Source: Bacteroidota bacterium
GTDB taxonomy: Bacteria > Bacteroidota > Bacteroidia > 2-12-FULL-35-15
Assembly (NCBI GenBank): GCA_021413595.1
Contig: JAIOQD010000547.1
Location: 1 to 10,771 of the forward strand
Direction of reading: 5' to 3'
Length of the DNA: 10,771 bases
The notes beneath the pieces were generated by a model, which was not told the DNA's origin, searched no databases, and worked only from the letters and a program-made list of their open reading frames with translations. Position 1 is the stretch's first letter; every line of letters starts with the position of its first letter. This document shows positions 5,389 through 10,771 of this stretch, in pieces. A program made the position numbers and the translations under genes.

Positions 5389-5396
5389 TAATTTTG
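5389..5396 (+). promoter_or_regulatory. Bacteroidota-type -7 promoter box for the dehydrogenase gene
   Basis: TAATTTTG matches the Bacteroidota housekeeping -7 consensus TAnnTTTG exactly. It lies 24 bases before the ATG at 5421, giving a short leader of about 18 bases. The -33 TTTG element is not clear at the usual 19-21-base spacing; the nearest TTTG (5377-5380) is too close. Because this box overlaps the TTG codon at 5394 that extends the reading frame, it argues for the ATG at 5421 as the true start. Confidence 0.45.
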
Positions 5397-5420
5397 TACC
5401 TCAACAAAAACAAAAACGAT

Positions 5421-6977
5421 ATGTCAGAAATATTAACAGCAAAAAGTTTTGGAATCGAAAGTGTTCTGAAAGAATTAGGAATTAAAGAAACCAATTACGG
5501 TGCCTCCACAGGCCTAAAACATATTGCTACAAAAGGAAAAAAGATAGATTCGTTCTCACCTGTTGACGGATTGCTTATTGGTAGTGTAAATGCTGCAACA
5601 GCAGAAGATTACACCAAGGTGATGAAAACTGCAGAAGAAGCTTTTAAAGTATGGCGTTTAATGCCAGCTCCAAAGCGTGGTGAGATCGTTCGCCAGGTGG
5701 GTGATGAACTACGAAAATATAAAGATTCATTAGGGAAATTGGTTTCTTATGAAATGGGAAAAAGTTTACAGGAAGGCTTAGGAGAAGTACAGGAGATGAT
5801 CGATATTTGCGATTTTGCTGTAGGTTTATCCCGACAGTTATACGGCTTAACAATGCATAGCGAACGCCCTATGCACCGGATGTATGAGCAATGGCATCCT
5901 TTTGGTGTTGTTGGAATTATTTCCGCTTTTAATTTCCCTGTTGCTGTATGGAGCTGGAATGCTGCTTTAGCTTGGGTATGTGGTGATGTTTGTATTTGGA
6001 AGCCAAGTTCAAAAACTCCATTATGCGCTATCGCTTGCCAGAATATTATTGCAGATGTATTAAAACGCAACAATGTTCCGGAAGGTGTTAGCTGCCTTGT
6101 AATTGGCAATGAATCGGGGGATCTGATCAATAACGATAAACGAATTCCATTAGTATCCTTTACAGGTTCAACCCGTATTGGTCGTCACGTGTCAAAAACA
6201 GTAGCCGAGCGTTTCGGTAATACTATTTTAGAGTTGGGTGGTAATAATGCAATCATTGTTTCTGAACATGCTGATTTGGGTATGGTATTGGTTGGTTCAG
6301 TATTTGGTGCTGTTGGAACGGCAGGTCAGCGTTGTACTTCCACTCGCAGATTAATTATTCATGATAGTATATATGATAAAACAATCCGCATTTTACAACA
6401 AGCGTATGCTCAATTACGCATTGGAAATCCTTTGGATGCAAACAACCATGTTGGGCCGTTAATTGATCAAAATGCAACAAAAGATTATTTGAATGCCATT
6501 GAAAAAGCAAAACAAGAAGGTGCTCAACTAATTGTAGAAGGTGGAATAGTAACAGGTGAAGGATACGAGAGTGGATGCTATGTTAAGCCTTGCATTATTG
6601 AAGCCAAAAATGAATTCCATATTGTACAGGAAGAAACCTTTGCCCCTATACTTTATGTGATGAAATATAACACCATTGAAGAAGCAATTGCAATGCAAAA
6701 TGGCGTTCCTCAAGGTTTATCCTCATCCATCTTTACCAACAACATGCGCGAAATGGAATTATTCCTTTCACAAGCAGGTTCAGACTGTGGTATTGCCAAT
6801 GTAAATATTGGAACATCCGGTGCTGAAATAGGGGGTGCATTTGGTGGTGAAAAAGAAACTGGTGGTGGACGTGAATCAGGCTCCGATGCCTGGAAAGCTT
6901 ATATGCGCAGACAAACAAACACTATTAATTATGGTAATAGCTTACCATTGGCACAAGGTATTAATTTTACAATTTAA
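5421..6977 (+). CDS. amaB: ALDH7-type aldehyde dehydrogenase (L-piperidine-6-carboxylate / aminoadipate-semialdehyde dehydrogenase)
   Basis: From the ATG at 5421 this is a 518-residue NAD(P)+-dependent aldehyde dehydrogenase. Members of the ALDH7 branch oxidise alpha-aminoadipic semialdehyde (in equilibrium with piperidine-6-carboxylate) to alpha-aminoadipate in lysine breakdown. Key residues from this start are the oxyanion Asn171 in FNFP, the coenzyme-binding Lys194 in WKPSS, the FTGSTRIG loop at about 247-254, general base Glu271 in LELGGNN, nucleophile Cys305 in GQRCTSTRR, and Glu405/Phe407 in EETFAP. The C-terminal signature GAEIGGAFGGEK followed by GGGRESGSDAWK and the ending LPLAQGI are diagnostic of ALDH7 rather than generic ALDHs. 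The frame continues upstream to a TTG at 5394, but that codon lies inside the promoter box, so the ATG is preferred. The gene is a single unit with its own terminator. No lysine aminotransferase or other lysine-catabolic partner is in the window, so the substrate comes from family membership. Confidence 0.93.
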   Translation: MSEILTAKSFGIESVLKELGIKETNYGASTGLKHIATKGKKIDSFSPVDGLLIGSVNAATAEDYTKVMKTAEEAFKVWRLMPAPKRGEIVRQVGDELRKYKDSLGKLVSYEMGKSLQEGLGEVQEMIDICDFAVGLSRQLYGLTMHSERPMHRMYEQWHPFGVVGIISAFNFPVAVWSWNAALAWVCGDVCIWKPSSKTPLCAIACQNIIADVLKRNNVPEGVSCLVIGNESGDLINNDKRIPLVSFTGSTRIGRHVSKTVAERFGNTILELGGNNAIIVSEHADLGMVLVGSVFGAVGTAGQRCTSTRRLIIHDSIYDKTIRILQQAYAQLRIGNPLDANNHVGPLIDQNATKDYLNAIEKAKQEGAQLIVEGGIVTGEGYESGCYVKPCIIEAKNEFHIVQEETFAPILYVMKYNTIEEAIAMQNGVPQGLSSSIFTNNMREMELFLSQAGSDCGIANVNIGTSGAEIGGAFGGEKETGGGRESGSDAWKAYMRRQTNTINYGNSLPLAQGINFTI

Positions 6978-6997: not shown

Positions 6998-7032
6998 AAA
7001 AGGTGCCCCGATAAATTATCAGGGCACCTTTT
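6998..7032 (+). terminator. Rho-independent terminator after the dehydrogenase gene
   Basis: AAAAGGTGCCC (6998-7008) pairs perfectly with GGGCACCTTTT (7022-7032). After one mismatch an inner GATA/TATC helix follows, leaving a three-base loop. The right arm ends in a T-run continuing as GTTT. It begins 20 bases after the stop codon. The A-run on the left and T-run on the right mean it could work in both directions. Confidence 0.9.
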
Positions 7033-7098
7033 GTTTATAAAGCCGATAATGGGAAAGAGTTACGTGTACAGAGAGGTTAGGCGGCATTTTACAAAAAC

Positions 7099-7104
7099 AG
7101 GAAG
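7099..7104 (+). promoter_or_regulatory. Shine-Dalgarno sequence deciding the peptidase start
   Basis: AGGAAG lies 7 bases before the ATG at 7112. This is unusual here, since the other plus-strand starts lack a recognisable site. It supports the ATG at 7112, which also begins a signal peptide, over the in-frame TTG at 7031 that sits inside the terminator. Confidence 0.6.
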
Positions 7105-7111
7105 ACATATT

Positions 7112-8128
7112 ATGAAAATAATTAAATTAACATTATTCATACTTTTAAATACATATATCGTCAATGGGCAAATTGATAACCAAAGCATTTCGACCCCGCA
7201 AATTGTTTCTAACAAATCAAAAAGTAAATATTTTAAAAAATACATTTATAACTTTAATAAAATCGTTCGATCAAATTCAATTTATGCCGACTCTTTAGAT
7301 TGGCATACCATTAATACTAACATAGCTAAATTATCAATAGGTTTAAAGGCAAAGGAAGATGCGCACATACTCTCTGATTATGTTTTGTCGGAACTAAGAC
7401 AATCTGGAGAAAATCATTCTTTTTATATGAAAAAAGTGAATGTAAATAAGTTTTCAGATCATAATACTGATGGTAGACAACCTTTTTCAAAATTGATCGA
7501 CAATCATATAGGGTACATATATGTTCCGGGCTTTAATTCTGTAAATGATACGACCTGTAGTAACTTTGCTATTAAAATTCAAAAGTTAATTGAAGATTTG
7601 GATTCAAGAAAAACAATTACAGGATGGATCATAGACTTAAGAGAAAATAGCGGAGGAAATATGTACCCAATGATTGCGGGCCTAGGACCAATTGTTGGTG
7701 AAGGAACTTTAGGTTATTTTATAAACCCCAAAAGTAAAAAAACTGATAAATGGTATTACTCAAATGGTTCTTCAGGAGAAGGAAATAAACCATATTTAAC
7801 GATCAAAAAACCATATTCACTTAAGACACTCAATTCTAAAGTTGCCGTATTAATTAGTTCTATGACAGGAAGCAGTGGTGAAATGACAGCGGTATCTTTT
7901 ATAGGTAAAGAAAATGTCAAAATCTTAGGACAAAATAGTGGTGGTTACACGACCGGCAATCAAGGCTACAAACTTTTAGATGGATCTTATTTATATCTCG
8001 CTGTTAGTTATATTTCTGACAGGAATAATAAAAAATATTTGGGAAGTATTTCACCAGACATTTTGGTTGACGAAAAAGATGACAACGATACAATTTCTAT
8101 TGCCCAGAAATGGTTAGACTCAAAATAA
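7112..8128 (+). CDS. Secreted S41-family serine peptidase
   Basis: From the ATG at 7112 this is a 338-residue protein with a Sec signal peptide of about 19 residues: KIIK, a hydrophobic core, cleavage near VNG/Q. The C-terminal two thirds is an S41 (C-terminal-processing/tricorn-type) peptidase fold. It includes HIGYIYVPGF near residue 132, WIIDLRENSGGN at about 172-183 (the conserved DLRxNxGG), a VAVLISSMTGSSGE segment with the presumed nucleophile Ser254 in SSGE (254-257), and GQNSGGYTTGN at about 273-283. I see no PDZ domain, unlike CtpA/Tsp enzymes. The MYPMIAGLGPIVGEGTLGYF stretch after the GG pair is distinctive for a subgroup. It should act in the periplasm or outside the cell; the substrate is unknown. 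The gene has its own Shine-Dalgarno, follows a strong terminator and is bracketed by attC-like boxes, suggesting acquisition as a cassette. Confidence 0.88.
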   Translation: MKIIKLTLFILLNTYIVNGQIDNQSISTPQIVSNKSKSKYFKKYIYNFNKIVRSNSIYADSLDWHTINTNIAKLSIGLKAKEDAHILSDYVLSELRQSGENHSFYMKKVNVNKFSDHNTDGRQPFSKLIDNHIGYIYVPGFNSVNDTTCSNFAIKIQKLIEDLDSRKTITGWIIDLRENSGGNMYPMIAGLGPIVGEGTLGYFINPKSKKTDKWYYSNGSSGEGNKPYLTIKKPYSLKTLNSKVAVLISSMTGSSGEMTAVSFIGKENVKILGQNSGGYTTGNQGYKLLDGSYLYLAVSYISDRNNKKYLGSISPDILVDEKDDNDTISIAQKWLDSK

Positions 8129-8134
8129 AAACGA

Positions 8135-8187
8135 CCGCCTAACACCGGCTAAGCGTGCGAAAAGCACGCCAAGCCAATCGTTATAAG
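8135..8187 (+). repeat. attC-like recombination site
   Basis: CCGCCTAAC (8135-8143) is followed by a bulged hairpin. GGCT (8147-8150) pairs with AGCC (8172-8175), two bases on each side do not pair, and GCGTGC (8153-8158) pairs with GCACGC (8164-8169) around a five-base GAAAA loop. AATC and GTTATAAG follow. Order and spacing (R'' core, imperfect stem, R' core) match an attC site, although GTTATAAG is only partly complementary to GCCTAAC. It starts six bases after the peptidase stop, where a cassette's site belongs. A plain terminator is less likely because no T-run follows the stem. Confidence 0.45.
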
Positions 8188-8235
8188 AAAACAAACTGTA
8201 ACCCGACAAAACAATTTAATAACTTAATAAAAGAC

Positions 8236-8551: not shown

Positions 8552-8575
8552 CACTATGCTTATTTTTACACAGTG
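8552..8575. promoter_or_regulatory. Palindromic operator 1, over the regulator's start codon
   Basis: CACTATG (8552-8558) and CACAGTG (8569-8575) form inverted arms with one mismatch, around a 10-base AT-rich centre. Total length and arms match the two sites downstream of the regulator gene. The last three bases of the right arm are the GTG start codon at 8573. A protein bound here would block transcription or translation entry, which fits autoregulation by the ModE-type protein. Assignment to that protein is by position and repetition, not by a known motif. Confidence 0.65.
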
Positions 8576-8923
8576 ACAAAAAAAGAGAAAAAATATTCGG
8601 TAAAGTTTCGTGTATGGATCGAAGAAGGCGAAGAGAGGTTTCTTGGCATGGGTAGAGTTATGCTTTTGGAGTTAATTGCGAAGACTGGATCTATAACAAA
8701 TGCAGCCAAGGAAATGAAAATGTCGTACCGACAAGCATGGCAATTTGTAGAGGAGATGAATAAGTATGCAAAAGAACCGCTTGTTGAGAAAATACTTGGT
8801 GGTAATAAAGGTGGAGGAGCAAGATTGACGGAAGCAGGGGAAAAAGCTATAAAAGAATTTAATAAGTTCGAAAATAAAGTTAAAGAATTTGTAAGGAAAG
8901 AATTTAAAAAAGTGAAATTGTAA
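8573..8923 (+). CDS. Single-domain ModE-type winged-helix transcriptional regulator
   Basis: A 116-residue protein that is essentially the N-terminal DNA-binding domain of ModE, the molybdate-responsive regulator. RVWIEEGEERFLGMGRVMLLE (about 13-33) is the usual lead-in. The helix-turn-helix follows with TGSITNAAKEMKMSYRQAW at 38-56. The wing GGNKGGGARLTEAG at 76-89 is the family hallmark. The last 25 residues are a lysine-rich helix. The C-terminal Mop/TOBE domains that bind molybdate in E. coli ModE are absent, so either another factor senses the ligand or the short form responds differently. The GTG at 8573 is the only start giving the full conserved N-terminus; the next in-frame ATG would remove the beta-strand lead-in. 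No Shine-Dalgarno is seen. The start codon lies inside operator 1, and two more copies of the palindrome stand between this gene and the receptor gene. It probably represses itself and the receptor. Confidence 0.85.
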   Translation: MTKKEKKYSVKFRVWIEEGEERFLGMGRVMLLELIAKTGSITNAAKEMKMSYRQAWQFVEEMNKYAKEPLVEKILGGNKGGGARLTEAGEKAIKEFNKFENKVKEFVRKEFKKVKL

Positions 8924-8936
8924 TTTTTTTAGTAGT

Positions 8937-8960
8937 CACTATGCCTTTAAAAGCATAGTG
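8937..8960. promoter_or_regulatory. Palindromic operator 2, after the regulator gene
   Basis: CACTATGC (8937-8944) and GCATAGTG (8953-8960) are perfect 8-bp inverted arms around CTTTAAAA. Of 24 positions, 22 are symmetric. It begins 14 bases after the regulator's stop codon. No T-run follows, so it is not a terminator. It is the most symmetric match to the core shared by operators 1 and 3. It may act as an upstream site for the receptor promoter. Confidence 0.7.
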
Positions 8961-8983
8961 TTAATTGAAAATAGAATACCCTT

Positions 8984-9006
8984 TATTGCTCAGGCAATAT
9001 TTTTTT
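8984..9006 (+). terminator. Short terminator or attenuator between the regulator and receptor genes
   Basis: TATTGC (8984-8989) and GCAATA (8994-8999) form a perfect 6-bp stem with a TCAG loop, followed at once by seven T (9000-9006). The stem is short and only moderately GC-rich, so termination may be partial. Its place between operators 2 and 3 suggests that the regulator and receptor are separate transcription units, or that read-through is limited. Confidence 0.45.
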
Positions 9007-9009
9007 GCG

Positions 9010-9039
9010 ATACACTATGTTTTTAAAAACACAGTGTAT
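9010..9039. promoter_or_regulatory. Palindromic operator 3, in front of the receptor gene
   Basis: This is the longest of the three sites. ATACACT (9010-9016) pairs with AGTGTAT (9033-9039), and the inner TGTTTTT/AAAAACA also pairs. Over 30 bp only one symmetric pair fails (A9017/C9032). The 24-bp core 9013-9036 starts with CACTATG and ends with CACAGTG, as in operator 1. It ends 23 bases before the receptor ATG, where a bound repressor would cover the promoter or the early transcribed region. Confidence 0.75.
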
Positions 9040-9062: not shown

Positions 9063-10771
9063 ATGAAATTGAGAATAATGCTTGGGTTAAGTTTAATTCC
9101 CTTGATTGGCATGAGCCAGCAAAAAGATTCATTAAAAGGTTCATCAAAAGATCCTTTAAAAACATCAAAAATTTTTAAGCTTGGTGAAATTGAAGTAACA
9201 TCAAATAAAAATGATGAGATGATTAATAGAGTTCGTTCCAACAGTATGGAACAGCAAAATAAAATGGAAGTATCAAAAGCACTAAACATGCTTTCTGGAA
9301 TAAGTATGACAACATTCGGAGCAAGAAACGAATCAATGGTAAATGTAAGAGGTTTTGATCTACGGCAAATCCCTGTTTATATGGATGGCATTCCTATTTA
9401 TGTTCCTTACGATGGTTATGTTGATTTGGCCAGATTTACAACATTTGATTTAGCTGCAATTGATGTATCAAAAGGATTTTCATCCATTATTTATGGACCG
9501 AATTCATTAGGTGGTGCAATTAATCTTATATCAAGAAAAGCAATTAAAAAAATTGAATACGATGGGGCATTGGGAATGATTAACACCAATGGATATAAAG
9601 GAAATGTGAACATAGGATCAAACTTAGGCAAATTTTTCGTGCAAGCCGGATATTCTTATTTGCACCGTAATTCTAATACGATATCTTCAAATTACACTCC
9701 CAATAAAAATGAATGGGGTGGAGAAAGAGATAATTCTTATCGCAGCGATCAAAAAATTAGTTTTAAGCTAGGTTTTACTCCAAACGAAAAACATGAATAT
9801 GTAATTGGATATATCAATCAGCAAGGACAAAAGGGAACTCCAGTATATTGTGGGACAGATGTAAAAAACTCAATGCTTACCAAACCAAGGTATTGGCAAT
9901 GGCCTTATTGGAATAAGGAAAGCTATTATTTCCTTTCAAACACCAAGCTGAACGAAAAAAATTATGTAAAAGCCCGAATCTATTATGATATTTTTAAAAA
10001 TTCTATATATAGTTTTGATGATACTTCTTACACTACTCAAAAGAAACCTTATGCTTTTCAAAGTTGGTATAACGATTATACCTACGGTGGTAGTTTAGAA
10101 TATGGCACAACATTAATTCCAAAAAACAATTTGAAACTTGCCCTTCATTTTAAAGAAGACATTCATAGAGAAAATAATTTAAATGAGCCAGTTCGCCTTT
10201 TTGAAGATAATACAATGAGCGTTGGTTTAGAGGATGTTTTCAAGGTATCAGACAAGTTTTTGATTATTCCCGGAGTAAGTTATGACGAAAGAAAAAGTGT
10301 AACAGCAGAAGACTATAATAGTTCAACCAAAACTGTATCTGATTTTACAAAAGCAGGAACAAGCCATGCCTTCAATGGTCAATTAGGATTATTTTATTAC
10401 GTAAATGACAATCATAAGATTGGTGCGACCGTTTCACATAAAACAAGGTTTGCTACTATTAAAGATCGTTATTCATACAAAATGGGAACAGGAATCCCTA
10501 ATCCTGACTTAAAACCAGAAATAGCAGATAATTATGAAATTAATTATAATGGAACTATTTTTAAAAAACTGACTATTCACACCGCATTGTTTTATAGCCA
10601 CCTAAAGGACGCTATTCTGAATGTTAGCAATGTTCAACCCGGAAAATCACAAATGCAAAACTTTGGAGCAGCAGAATACCAAGGTGCAGAGTTTCAGGCG
10701 AATTATAACGTTTTTAAAAATGTACATGTTGGTGCAAACTATATTGAAAGGCATAATTTAACGAATAATAC
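9063..10771 (+). CDS. TonB-dependent outer-membrane receptor (5' part, runs off the window)
   Basis: The frame is open from the ATG at 9063 to the window end (569 complete codons), so the C-terminal part of the barrel is missing. A signal peptide (KLR, a hydrophobic core, cleavage near GMSQ) covers about residues 1-19. A TonB-box-like GEIEVTS follows at 41-47. The plug domain spans about 50-160, with NVRGFD at 94-99, YMDGIPIYVPYDGY at 106-119 and the conserved GPNSLGGAINLISRK at 145-159. From about 165 on, alternating aromatic/polar strands with long loops form the barrel, including an aromatic-rich loop PRYWQWPYWNKESYYF near 276-291. The N-terminal carboxypeptidase-like domain common in SusC-type Bacteroidota receptors is absent. 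The architecture is that of siderophore, metallophore or vitamin receptors. Family receptors import ligands using TonB energy. Placement behind two operators of a ModE-type regulator suggests molybdate, tungstate or a complex of them, which is inference only. Confidence 0.92.
   Translation, partial: MKLRIMLGLSLIPLIGMSQQKDSLKGSSKDPLKTSKIFKLGEIEVTSNKNDEMINRVRSNSMEQQNKMEVSKALNMLSGISMTTFGARNESMVNVRGFDLRQIPVYMDGIPIYVPYDGYVDLARFTTFDLAAIDVSKGFSSIIYGPNSLGGAINLISRKAIKKIEYDGALGMINTNGYKGNVNIGSNLGKFFVQAGYSYLHRNSNTISSNYTPNKNEWGGERDNSYRSDQKISFKLGFTPNEKHEYVIGYINQQGQKGTPVYCGTDVKNSMLTKPRYWQWPYWNKESYYFLSNTKLNEKNYVKARIYYDIFKNSIYSFDDTSYTTQKKPYAFQSWYNDYTYGGSLEYGTTLIPKNNLKLALHFKEDIHRENNLNEPVRLFEDNTMSVGLEDVFKVSDKFLIIPGVSYDERKSVTAEDYNSSTKTVSDFTKAGTSHAFNGQLGLFYYVNDNHKIGATVSHKTRFATIKDRYSYKMGTGIPNPDLKPEIADNYEINYNGTIFKKLTIHTALFYSHLKDAILNVSNVQPGKSQMQNFGAAEYQGAEFQANYNVFKNVHVGANYIERHNLTNN

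Follow-up and report, generated by a model that had tools for sequence, protein, structure and literature searches.

Three 24-bp palindromes flank a gene for a single-domain ModE-type regulator and the TonB-dependent receptor (TBDT) gene behind it in the window, the whole 10,771-nt stretch of DNA analysed here. It is highly probable that they are operators of the neighbouring regulator, predicted as classical 24-bp ModE boxes with drifted arms. Comparison across genomes strongly supports a ModE-type regulon, and its best reading is a Bacteroidota regulon of few genes with a receptor operon as the predicted main target, comprising the TBDT, often a di-haem peroxidase, and a small PF00174-type protein.

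Table 1 Predicted operators and genes of the regulator–receptor locus (positions in the window).
Feature	Position	Strand	Description
Operator 1	8552–8575		CACTATG-N10-CACAGTG; overlaps the GTG start codon (8573–8575) of the regulator ORF
Regulator ORF	8573–8923	+	Single-domain ModE-type winged-helix protein, 116 aa, without TOBE/Mop match
Operator 2	8937–8960		Perfect arms CACTATG/CATAGTG; starts 14 nt past the last base of the regulator ORF
Operator 3	9010–9039		Dyad reaching 30 bp; 24-bp core 9013–9036; 26 bp from core to receptor ATG
TonB-dependent receptor (TBDT)	9063–10769	+	Plug and partial barrel; cut by contig end

A pattern scan of the window with CACTATG-N10-CAyAGTG at zero mismatches returned exactly the three operators in Table 1 (the third as its core), and allowing 3 mismatches gave six strand-matches at the same three places and no further copy. 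The initial annotation, which had placed three such palindromes around a ModE-type regulator and a receptor gene and had seen no other copy in the window, was right on both counts. The same 3-mismatch scan of the shuffled window gave a mean of 0.87 matches and a largest count of 6, reached by 3 of 200 shuffles. Sites 1 and 3 are each one base off in the right arm, and the 10-bp centre is AT-rich at all three sites and near-palindromic at sites 2 and 3 only. The window is the whole of contig C599 in an assembly of 3.64 Mb (793 contigs, 83.6% complete), in which CACTATK-N10-CATAGTG with up to 1 mismatch occurred only at these three places (reversed control: 0 forward, 1 reverse). Two mismatches in the CATAGTG form added three unrelated places (reversed control 9 versus 6).

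Elsewhere in the window, an S41 peptidase gene (7031–8128) lies between the heptamers GTTAGGC (7076–7082) and GCCTAAC (8137–8143), the second of which sits in a hairpin whose DNA fold was better than all 200 shuffles (region 7076–8190). We take this segment to resemble an integron cassette carrying an attC site; taken by themselves, the two heptamers are within chance, with 25 of 200 shuffles reaching two. The aldehyde dehydrogenase at 5394–6977 matched L-piperidine-6-carboxylate dehydrogenase (828 bits versus a cut-off of 730).

The regulator aligned with the ModE profile TIGR00637 over positions 2–91 of 100 with 95.6 bits (E = 1.5e-27), a near miss of the curated cut-off of 98.5. Pfam reported HTH_1 only, with no Mop or TOBE domain after the HTH, and the full-length ModE model NF007957 gave 65.8 bits versus a cut-off of 369. 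Its sequence relatives in the PDB were 2ijl, 1b9m and 1o7l; the closest, 2ijl (135 aa, PDB name ‘Molybdenum-binding transcriptional repressor’), was compared by sequence only. A relatives search of 59 genomes found the regulator in 16, and a sample of 392 genomes across the phylum found it in 90, both counts including the window's own genome; many of the 90, in one family, have open frames of 270–350 aa and look like full-length ModE. Regulator neighbours in relatives, named by eye, were moeA, mobA, moeB, moaE, moaC, moaA and TauE-family genes. Pfam confirmed one representative each of moeA, mobA, moaE, moaC and moaA, as well as TauE, ModA and a TOBE protein, and BLAST to E. coli ModABC placed modABC beside the regulator in L027 and L043.

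The operator of E. coli K-12 modA, as read from the K-12 record, is CGTTATA-N10-CATAACG and ends 19 bp before the modA CDS. It has the same 7-10-7 layout, 24-bp length and TAT core as the window sites and, as here, stands just before its target gene; the window arms differ from it at letters 2 and 7 and at the free letter 3. The view of the initial annotation that the arms depart from the CGnTATAT-type half-sites of E. coli was overstated, since footprint and TAT core equal those of the modA operator and only letters 2, 3 and 7 drift. Set against CGnTATA-N10-TATAnCG, the window sites have the 24-bp dyad, the 7-10-7 layout and the TAT/ATA core (with ACA for ATA in the right arm of sites 1 and 3), and carry CA in place of the outer CG. 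This outer dinucleotide was CA in all 30 Flavobacterium-group boxes; it was CG in all 12 Dyadobacter boxes and in 27 of the 37 remaining ones. Arm letter 3, open in the E. coli consensus, is T in E. coli modA, C in the window, G in 28 of the 30 Flavobacterium-group boxes and A in all 12 Dyadobacter boxes, a variation suggesting that this position is read and has drifted symmetrically. In relatives the sites stay at their places, with changed letters: L030 has a near-canonical box (CGCTATA...CATAGCG), and L076 has boxes at all three matching places. Studholme and Pau reportedly described ModE sites in 2003, going by their title, in green sulphur bacteria, relatives of the Bacteroidota outside the Proteobacteria. 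We conclude that the predicted operator is a drifted classical ModE box and not a new kind.

The ModE consensus printed in the accessible part of one study, ATCGnTATATA-N6-TATATAnCGAT, has a layout matching the window boxes (PMC545781), and a close form of it appears in the accessible part of another (PMC2700814). The same part of the former describes single-domain ModE regulators of Desulfovibrio that consist, like the window regulator, of a DNA-binding domain alone, and calls their mechanism of molybdenum sensing not clear (PMC545781). The site predicted there for Desulfovibrio, CGGTCACG-N14-CGTGACCG, is unlike the window boxes, whereas the Bacteroidota single-domain regulators keep the E. 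coli-type layout. E. coli ModE shares its winged-helix domain with the window regulator, from which its Mop/TOBE domains are absent; its target is modABC, whereas the conserved main target here is predicted to be a TBDT operon.

Operator arm letters and regulator wing may have drifted together. In 71 of 72 labelled rows (counterexample L010), residue 74 (window numbering), which lies just before the wing glycines, was I, L or V where the operator was CA and a different residue where it was CG. This residue set was chosen post hoc, and with only 4 changes on the tree and a single independent pair among its well-supported branches the association was not significant. Eighteen of the 24 CA-type regulators are from Flavobacterium, so the lineages are not independent. 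The 72 rows leave out L092 (regulator cut by the contig end), the duplicates L011, L014, L023 and L053, box-less loci and one full-length regulator. Residue 43 (N) was rejected as setting operator base 2, failing in four rows, among them L107 and L008.

A receptor-alignment scan of genome contigs yielded, from the best 80 of 468 relatives together with the window, 81 loci. By a box rule derived partly from these same loci, 65 of the 81 had a box between −170 and +140 of the called TBDT start, in genera including Flavobacterium, Dyadobacter, Spirosoma and Larkinella, and 16 had none; 12 of the 65 had it only behind the called start, and these receptor starts were probably called too far upstream. 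The regulator was inside the stretch in 54 loci, with a box after it in 49 (16 of them at +13 to +15) and upstream of it in 11, 10 of these at an identical offset (−30 from the first profile column). Five of the 54 had no box after the regulator or by the TBDT; three of them had one before the regulator, and L115 and L121 had none at all around regulator or receptor. A receptor orthologue (56–78% identical) follows the regulator in L029, L030, L031 and L033, and the window receptor is 78% identical to those of L029 and L030, which also follow regulator and boxes.

The absence near orthologous regulators that would have counted against the initial annotation was not seen, the motif lying after the gene in 49 of 54 loci. 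That annotation had combined a family-linked operator of a ModE-type regulator with autoregulation; the link held across genomes, and autoregulation came out weaker: 11 of 54 loci have a box ahead of the regulator, and 65 of 81 have one by the TBDT. These frequencies point to the receptor as the main conserved target, and autoregulation appears plausible in this lineage and not general.

The receptor exceeded the cut-offs for PF07715 (plug) and PF00593 (barrel), identifying it as a TonB-dependent transporter. In 68 of 80 loci a small protein of one BLAST cluster is encoded near the receptor and on its strand; its gene follows the receptor directly in about 40 of these and at a distance of 0.8–1.5 kb in 24. 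A di-haem peroxidase cluster (MauG/MbnH type) lies near the receptor in 31 of 80; both counts rest on BLAST clusters, with Pfam run on few members. In those runs the small proteins of L029 and L140 exceeded the cut-off for PF00174 (molybdopterin oxidoreductase domain), that of L030 fell below it (21.4 versus 24), and PF03150 was present in L144 and L146. The box after the regulator precedes the di-haem peroxidase gene in two Pedobacter loci (L146, checked with Pfam, and L152). Dyadobacter arcticus (L185) has a second regulator with a box and then a shortened receptor-like gene behind it, and peroxidase-like and PF00174 genes lie nearby. Between regulator and receptor, six loci (L082, L083, L088, L095, L098 and L104) carry a second TBDT-like gene (about 850 aa) that has a box of its own; the family scan covered that of L083 only. 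By eye, the shortened receptor paralogue of F. johnsoniae CI04 (L177), with a perfect-arm box, adjoins an integrase-looking ORF. One contig titled Thalassovita (L140), perhaps mis-binned, carries a Bacteroidota-type regulator–receptor operon.

Boxes before molybdate-transport or cofactor genes occurred in single loci only. In a Crocinitomicaceae MAG (G464, locus L212) a box separates a second regulator from a modA-type binding-protein gene (PF13531), and in Emticicia agri (L183) a box has a TauE-family gene 10 bp downstream and a mechanosensitive-channel gene on its other side. In the window's own genome, further parts of the receptor gene were sought, and the piece in the window was the sole match. 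A PF00174 gene at the very end of contig C758 is 83% identical to that following the L029 receptor; this fits the missing continuation of the receptor operon without proving it. Contig C541 of this genome carries moaC beside a moaE-like gene, and contig C399 encodes one protein above the cut-off for molybdopterin oxidoreductase; the contigs with moaC, the molybdopterin oxidoreductase and the PF00174 gene held only weaker box matches.

From this regulation and these neighbours, we infer that the receptor may import molybdenum or tungsten. Somewhat short of an even chance, in our judgement, is the specific proposal that Bacteroidota take up molybdate, tungstate or a chelate of Mo or W through a dedicated TBDT under ModE control, which has a PF00174-type partner and in many cases a di-haem peroxidase and is run by a ModE lacking the metal-binding domains. 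A fully compatible view of the operators, a possibility of real weight though not a probable one, is that the box is a genuine ModE operator and the receptor serves another molybdenum-switched substrate, such as haem, copper or an organic cofactor. The nearest receptor family models, all far below their cut-offs, were those of haem, siderophore and B12 receptors, the PDB sequence relatives include the colicin I receptor, BtuB and a PQQ transporter, and the MauG/MbnH-type peroxidase would suit such a substrate as well. Against it stand the ModE box that the receptor carries over many genera and the PF00174-type homologue behind it in the 68 loci. In the accessible part of one study, the ModA-IcmP system of P. 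aeruginosa links an outer-membrane protein to molybdate delivery, with ModA secreted by the type VI system (PMC11734730), which resembles the proposed role of the receptor, likened by description only.

Strict boxes were concentrated in front of the receptors, with 56 in 57,115 positions (−700 to +15 of the TBDT) versus 19 in 977,058 positions elsewhere, an enrichment of about 50-fold. On reading, 17 of the 19 sit between regulator and receptor or at an early-called receptor start, and only those of L119 and L139 lie away from both. A motif-free test asked which spacing between 7-bp inverted-repeat arms is frequent. Upstream, the counts peaked at 10, 12 and 14 bp, with such repeats in 50, 51 and 44 of the 81 loci; gene-body controls had no such peak (13, 18 and 21 loci). 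The three spacings reflect a single long palindrome read with its arms shifted. Twenty-seven loci had no regulator in the stretch, 18 of them with a box and nine without. The strongest test used the box to predict the regulator: a search of 26 of these 27 genomes (L128 left out) found it elsewhere in 17 of 17 box genomes versus 0 of 9 box-less ones (Fisher p = 3.2e-7, relatedness ignored); six of the nine are MAGs, perhaps incomplete. Box and regulator thus agree in 26 of 26 searched genomes, and the random scatter without a regulator link that would have counted against the initial proposal was not seen.

This agreement, obtained with the regulator outside the stretch, speaks against the idea that the boxes belong to another dimeric receptor regulator and that the ModE-like gene is merely a neighbour. 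That idea can draw on the sub-threshold TIGR00637 score and on a second set of 47 regulator loci from relatives and phylum searches, which had a box nearby in 28 and none in 19; eight were full-length forms, one of them with a box, and 12 of the remaining 39, all single-domain, had none. Yet the same layout precedes E. coli modA, and boxes also stand by regulators that lack such a TBDT in the stretch (L013, L015–L017, L020, L021 and L024), leaving it very improbable.

Genome scans suggest that the regulon of the ModE-type protein is very small. A loose box pattern in 10 genomes was not informative (139 matches versus 135 for the reversed control), and the inspected places in L184 and L186 had no evident molybdenum link. 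With up to 2 mismatches, F. johnsoniae CI04 had three places (reversed control 2), two at the receptor operon and one before the shortened receptor paralogue, and F. hydatis had a pair at the operon and another pair, with 2 mismatches each, at other places (reversed control 1). Across three genomes of the CACTATK type, eight places came within 1 mismatch, and seven of these were at the regulator–receptor locus.

In place of a DNA operator, the palindromes could act as RNA hairpins, as a terminator, an attenuator or part of a riboswitch. The RNA folds of sites 2 and 3 surpassed those of all 200 shuffles (z = −4.0 and −5.3), and site 2 lies just past a stop codon; site 1, by contrast, was no better than shuffles (z = −0.34), and the sole terminator-like match of the region lies away from the palindromes. 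No Rfam family reached its gathering score, the best over sites 2–3 having 27.6 bits versus 100. Covariation was assessed in 54 distinct boxes chosen with no demand for symmetry (core fixed, pair 2 limited to A/G with C/T, pair 3 free; three mixed-operator rows left out). Only pairs 2 and 3 clearly covaried, being complementary in 51 of 54 (28.6 expected) and 35 of 54 (14.1 expected), and pairs 7–12 were near or below expectation, the largest excess being at pair 8 (29 versus 23.8). That the symmetric change falls on arm pairs 2 and 3 and hardly on the centre speaks for an operator in DNA rather than a hairpin in RNA, and the box accompanies the regulator gene even where that gene sits elsewhere in the genome. 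An RNA hairpin or riboswitch was rejected as the main reading on Rfam, terminator scan, folding and covariation, and we regard an RNA role in place of the operator as a most improbable one. A dispersed repeat was ruled out by the count of only three close copies in the own genome and by the fixed places with differing letters among relatives.

The predicted ModE operators also relate to a promoter-like motif. Of 65 receptor promoters, 14 had an exact TAnnTTTG, which we take to be the Bacteroidota −7 consensus, in the 45 bp preceding the box; it was flush with the box in 11, and most of the 14 are from related genomes. Shuffles gave a mean of 1.7 and a maximum of 5, and a stretch further upstream gave 2 of 65. 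Window site 3 has no exact TAnnTTTG and only a stretched T-run. If TAnnTTTG is the −7 element, the box would cover the transcription start, as expected of a repressor.

From the computed sites, their layout and their links to regulator and receptor, we infer binding, repression, the metal signal and the receptor ligand as follows. A regulator dimer would most likely bind sites 2 and 3 at the promoter of the TBDT operon and, in this lineage, most likely also site 1 over its own start codon. When molybdate or tungstate, or a product of it, is plentiful, the regulator would shut off the receptor operon and itself. E. coli ModE represses when molybdenum or tungsten is plentiful, and repression under the same condition is presumed here by analogy with it. 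The receptor would import molybdate, tungstate or a chelate of them.

Passage of molybdate through the outer membrane of Gram-negative bacteria is usually left to porins. The literature covered, the top-ranked entries of searches that mostly lay outside subscription journals, showed no ModE-controlled TonB receptor. A receptor with a ModE box is a concrete, knock-out-ready candidate for active uptake of molybdenum or tungsten. The 54 distinct operators with their regulators should be useful for understanding how ModE reads the arms, and also how a ModE without metal-binding domains can report molybdenum status.
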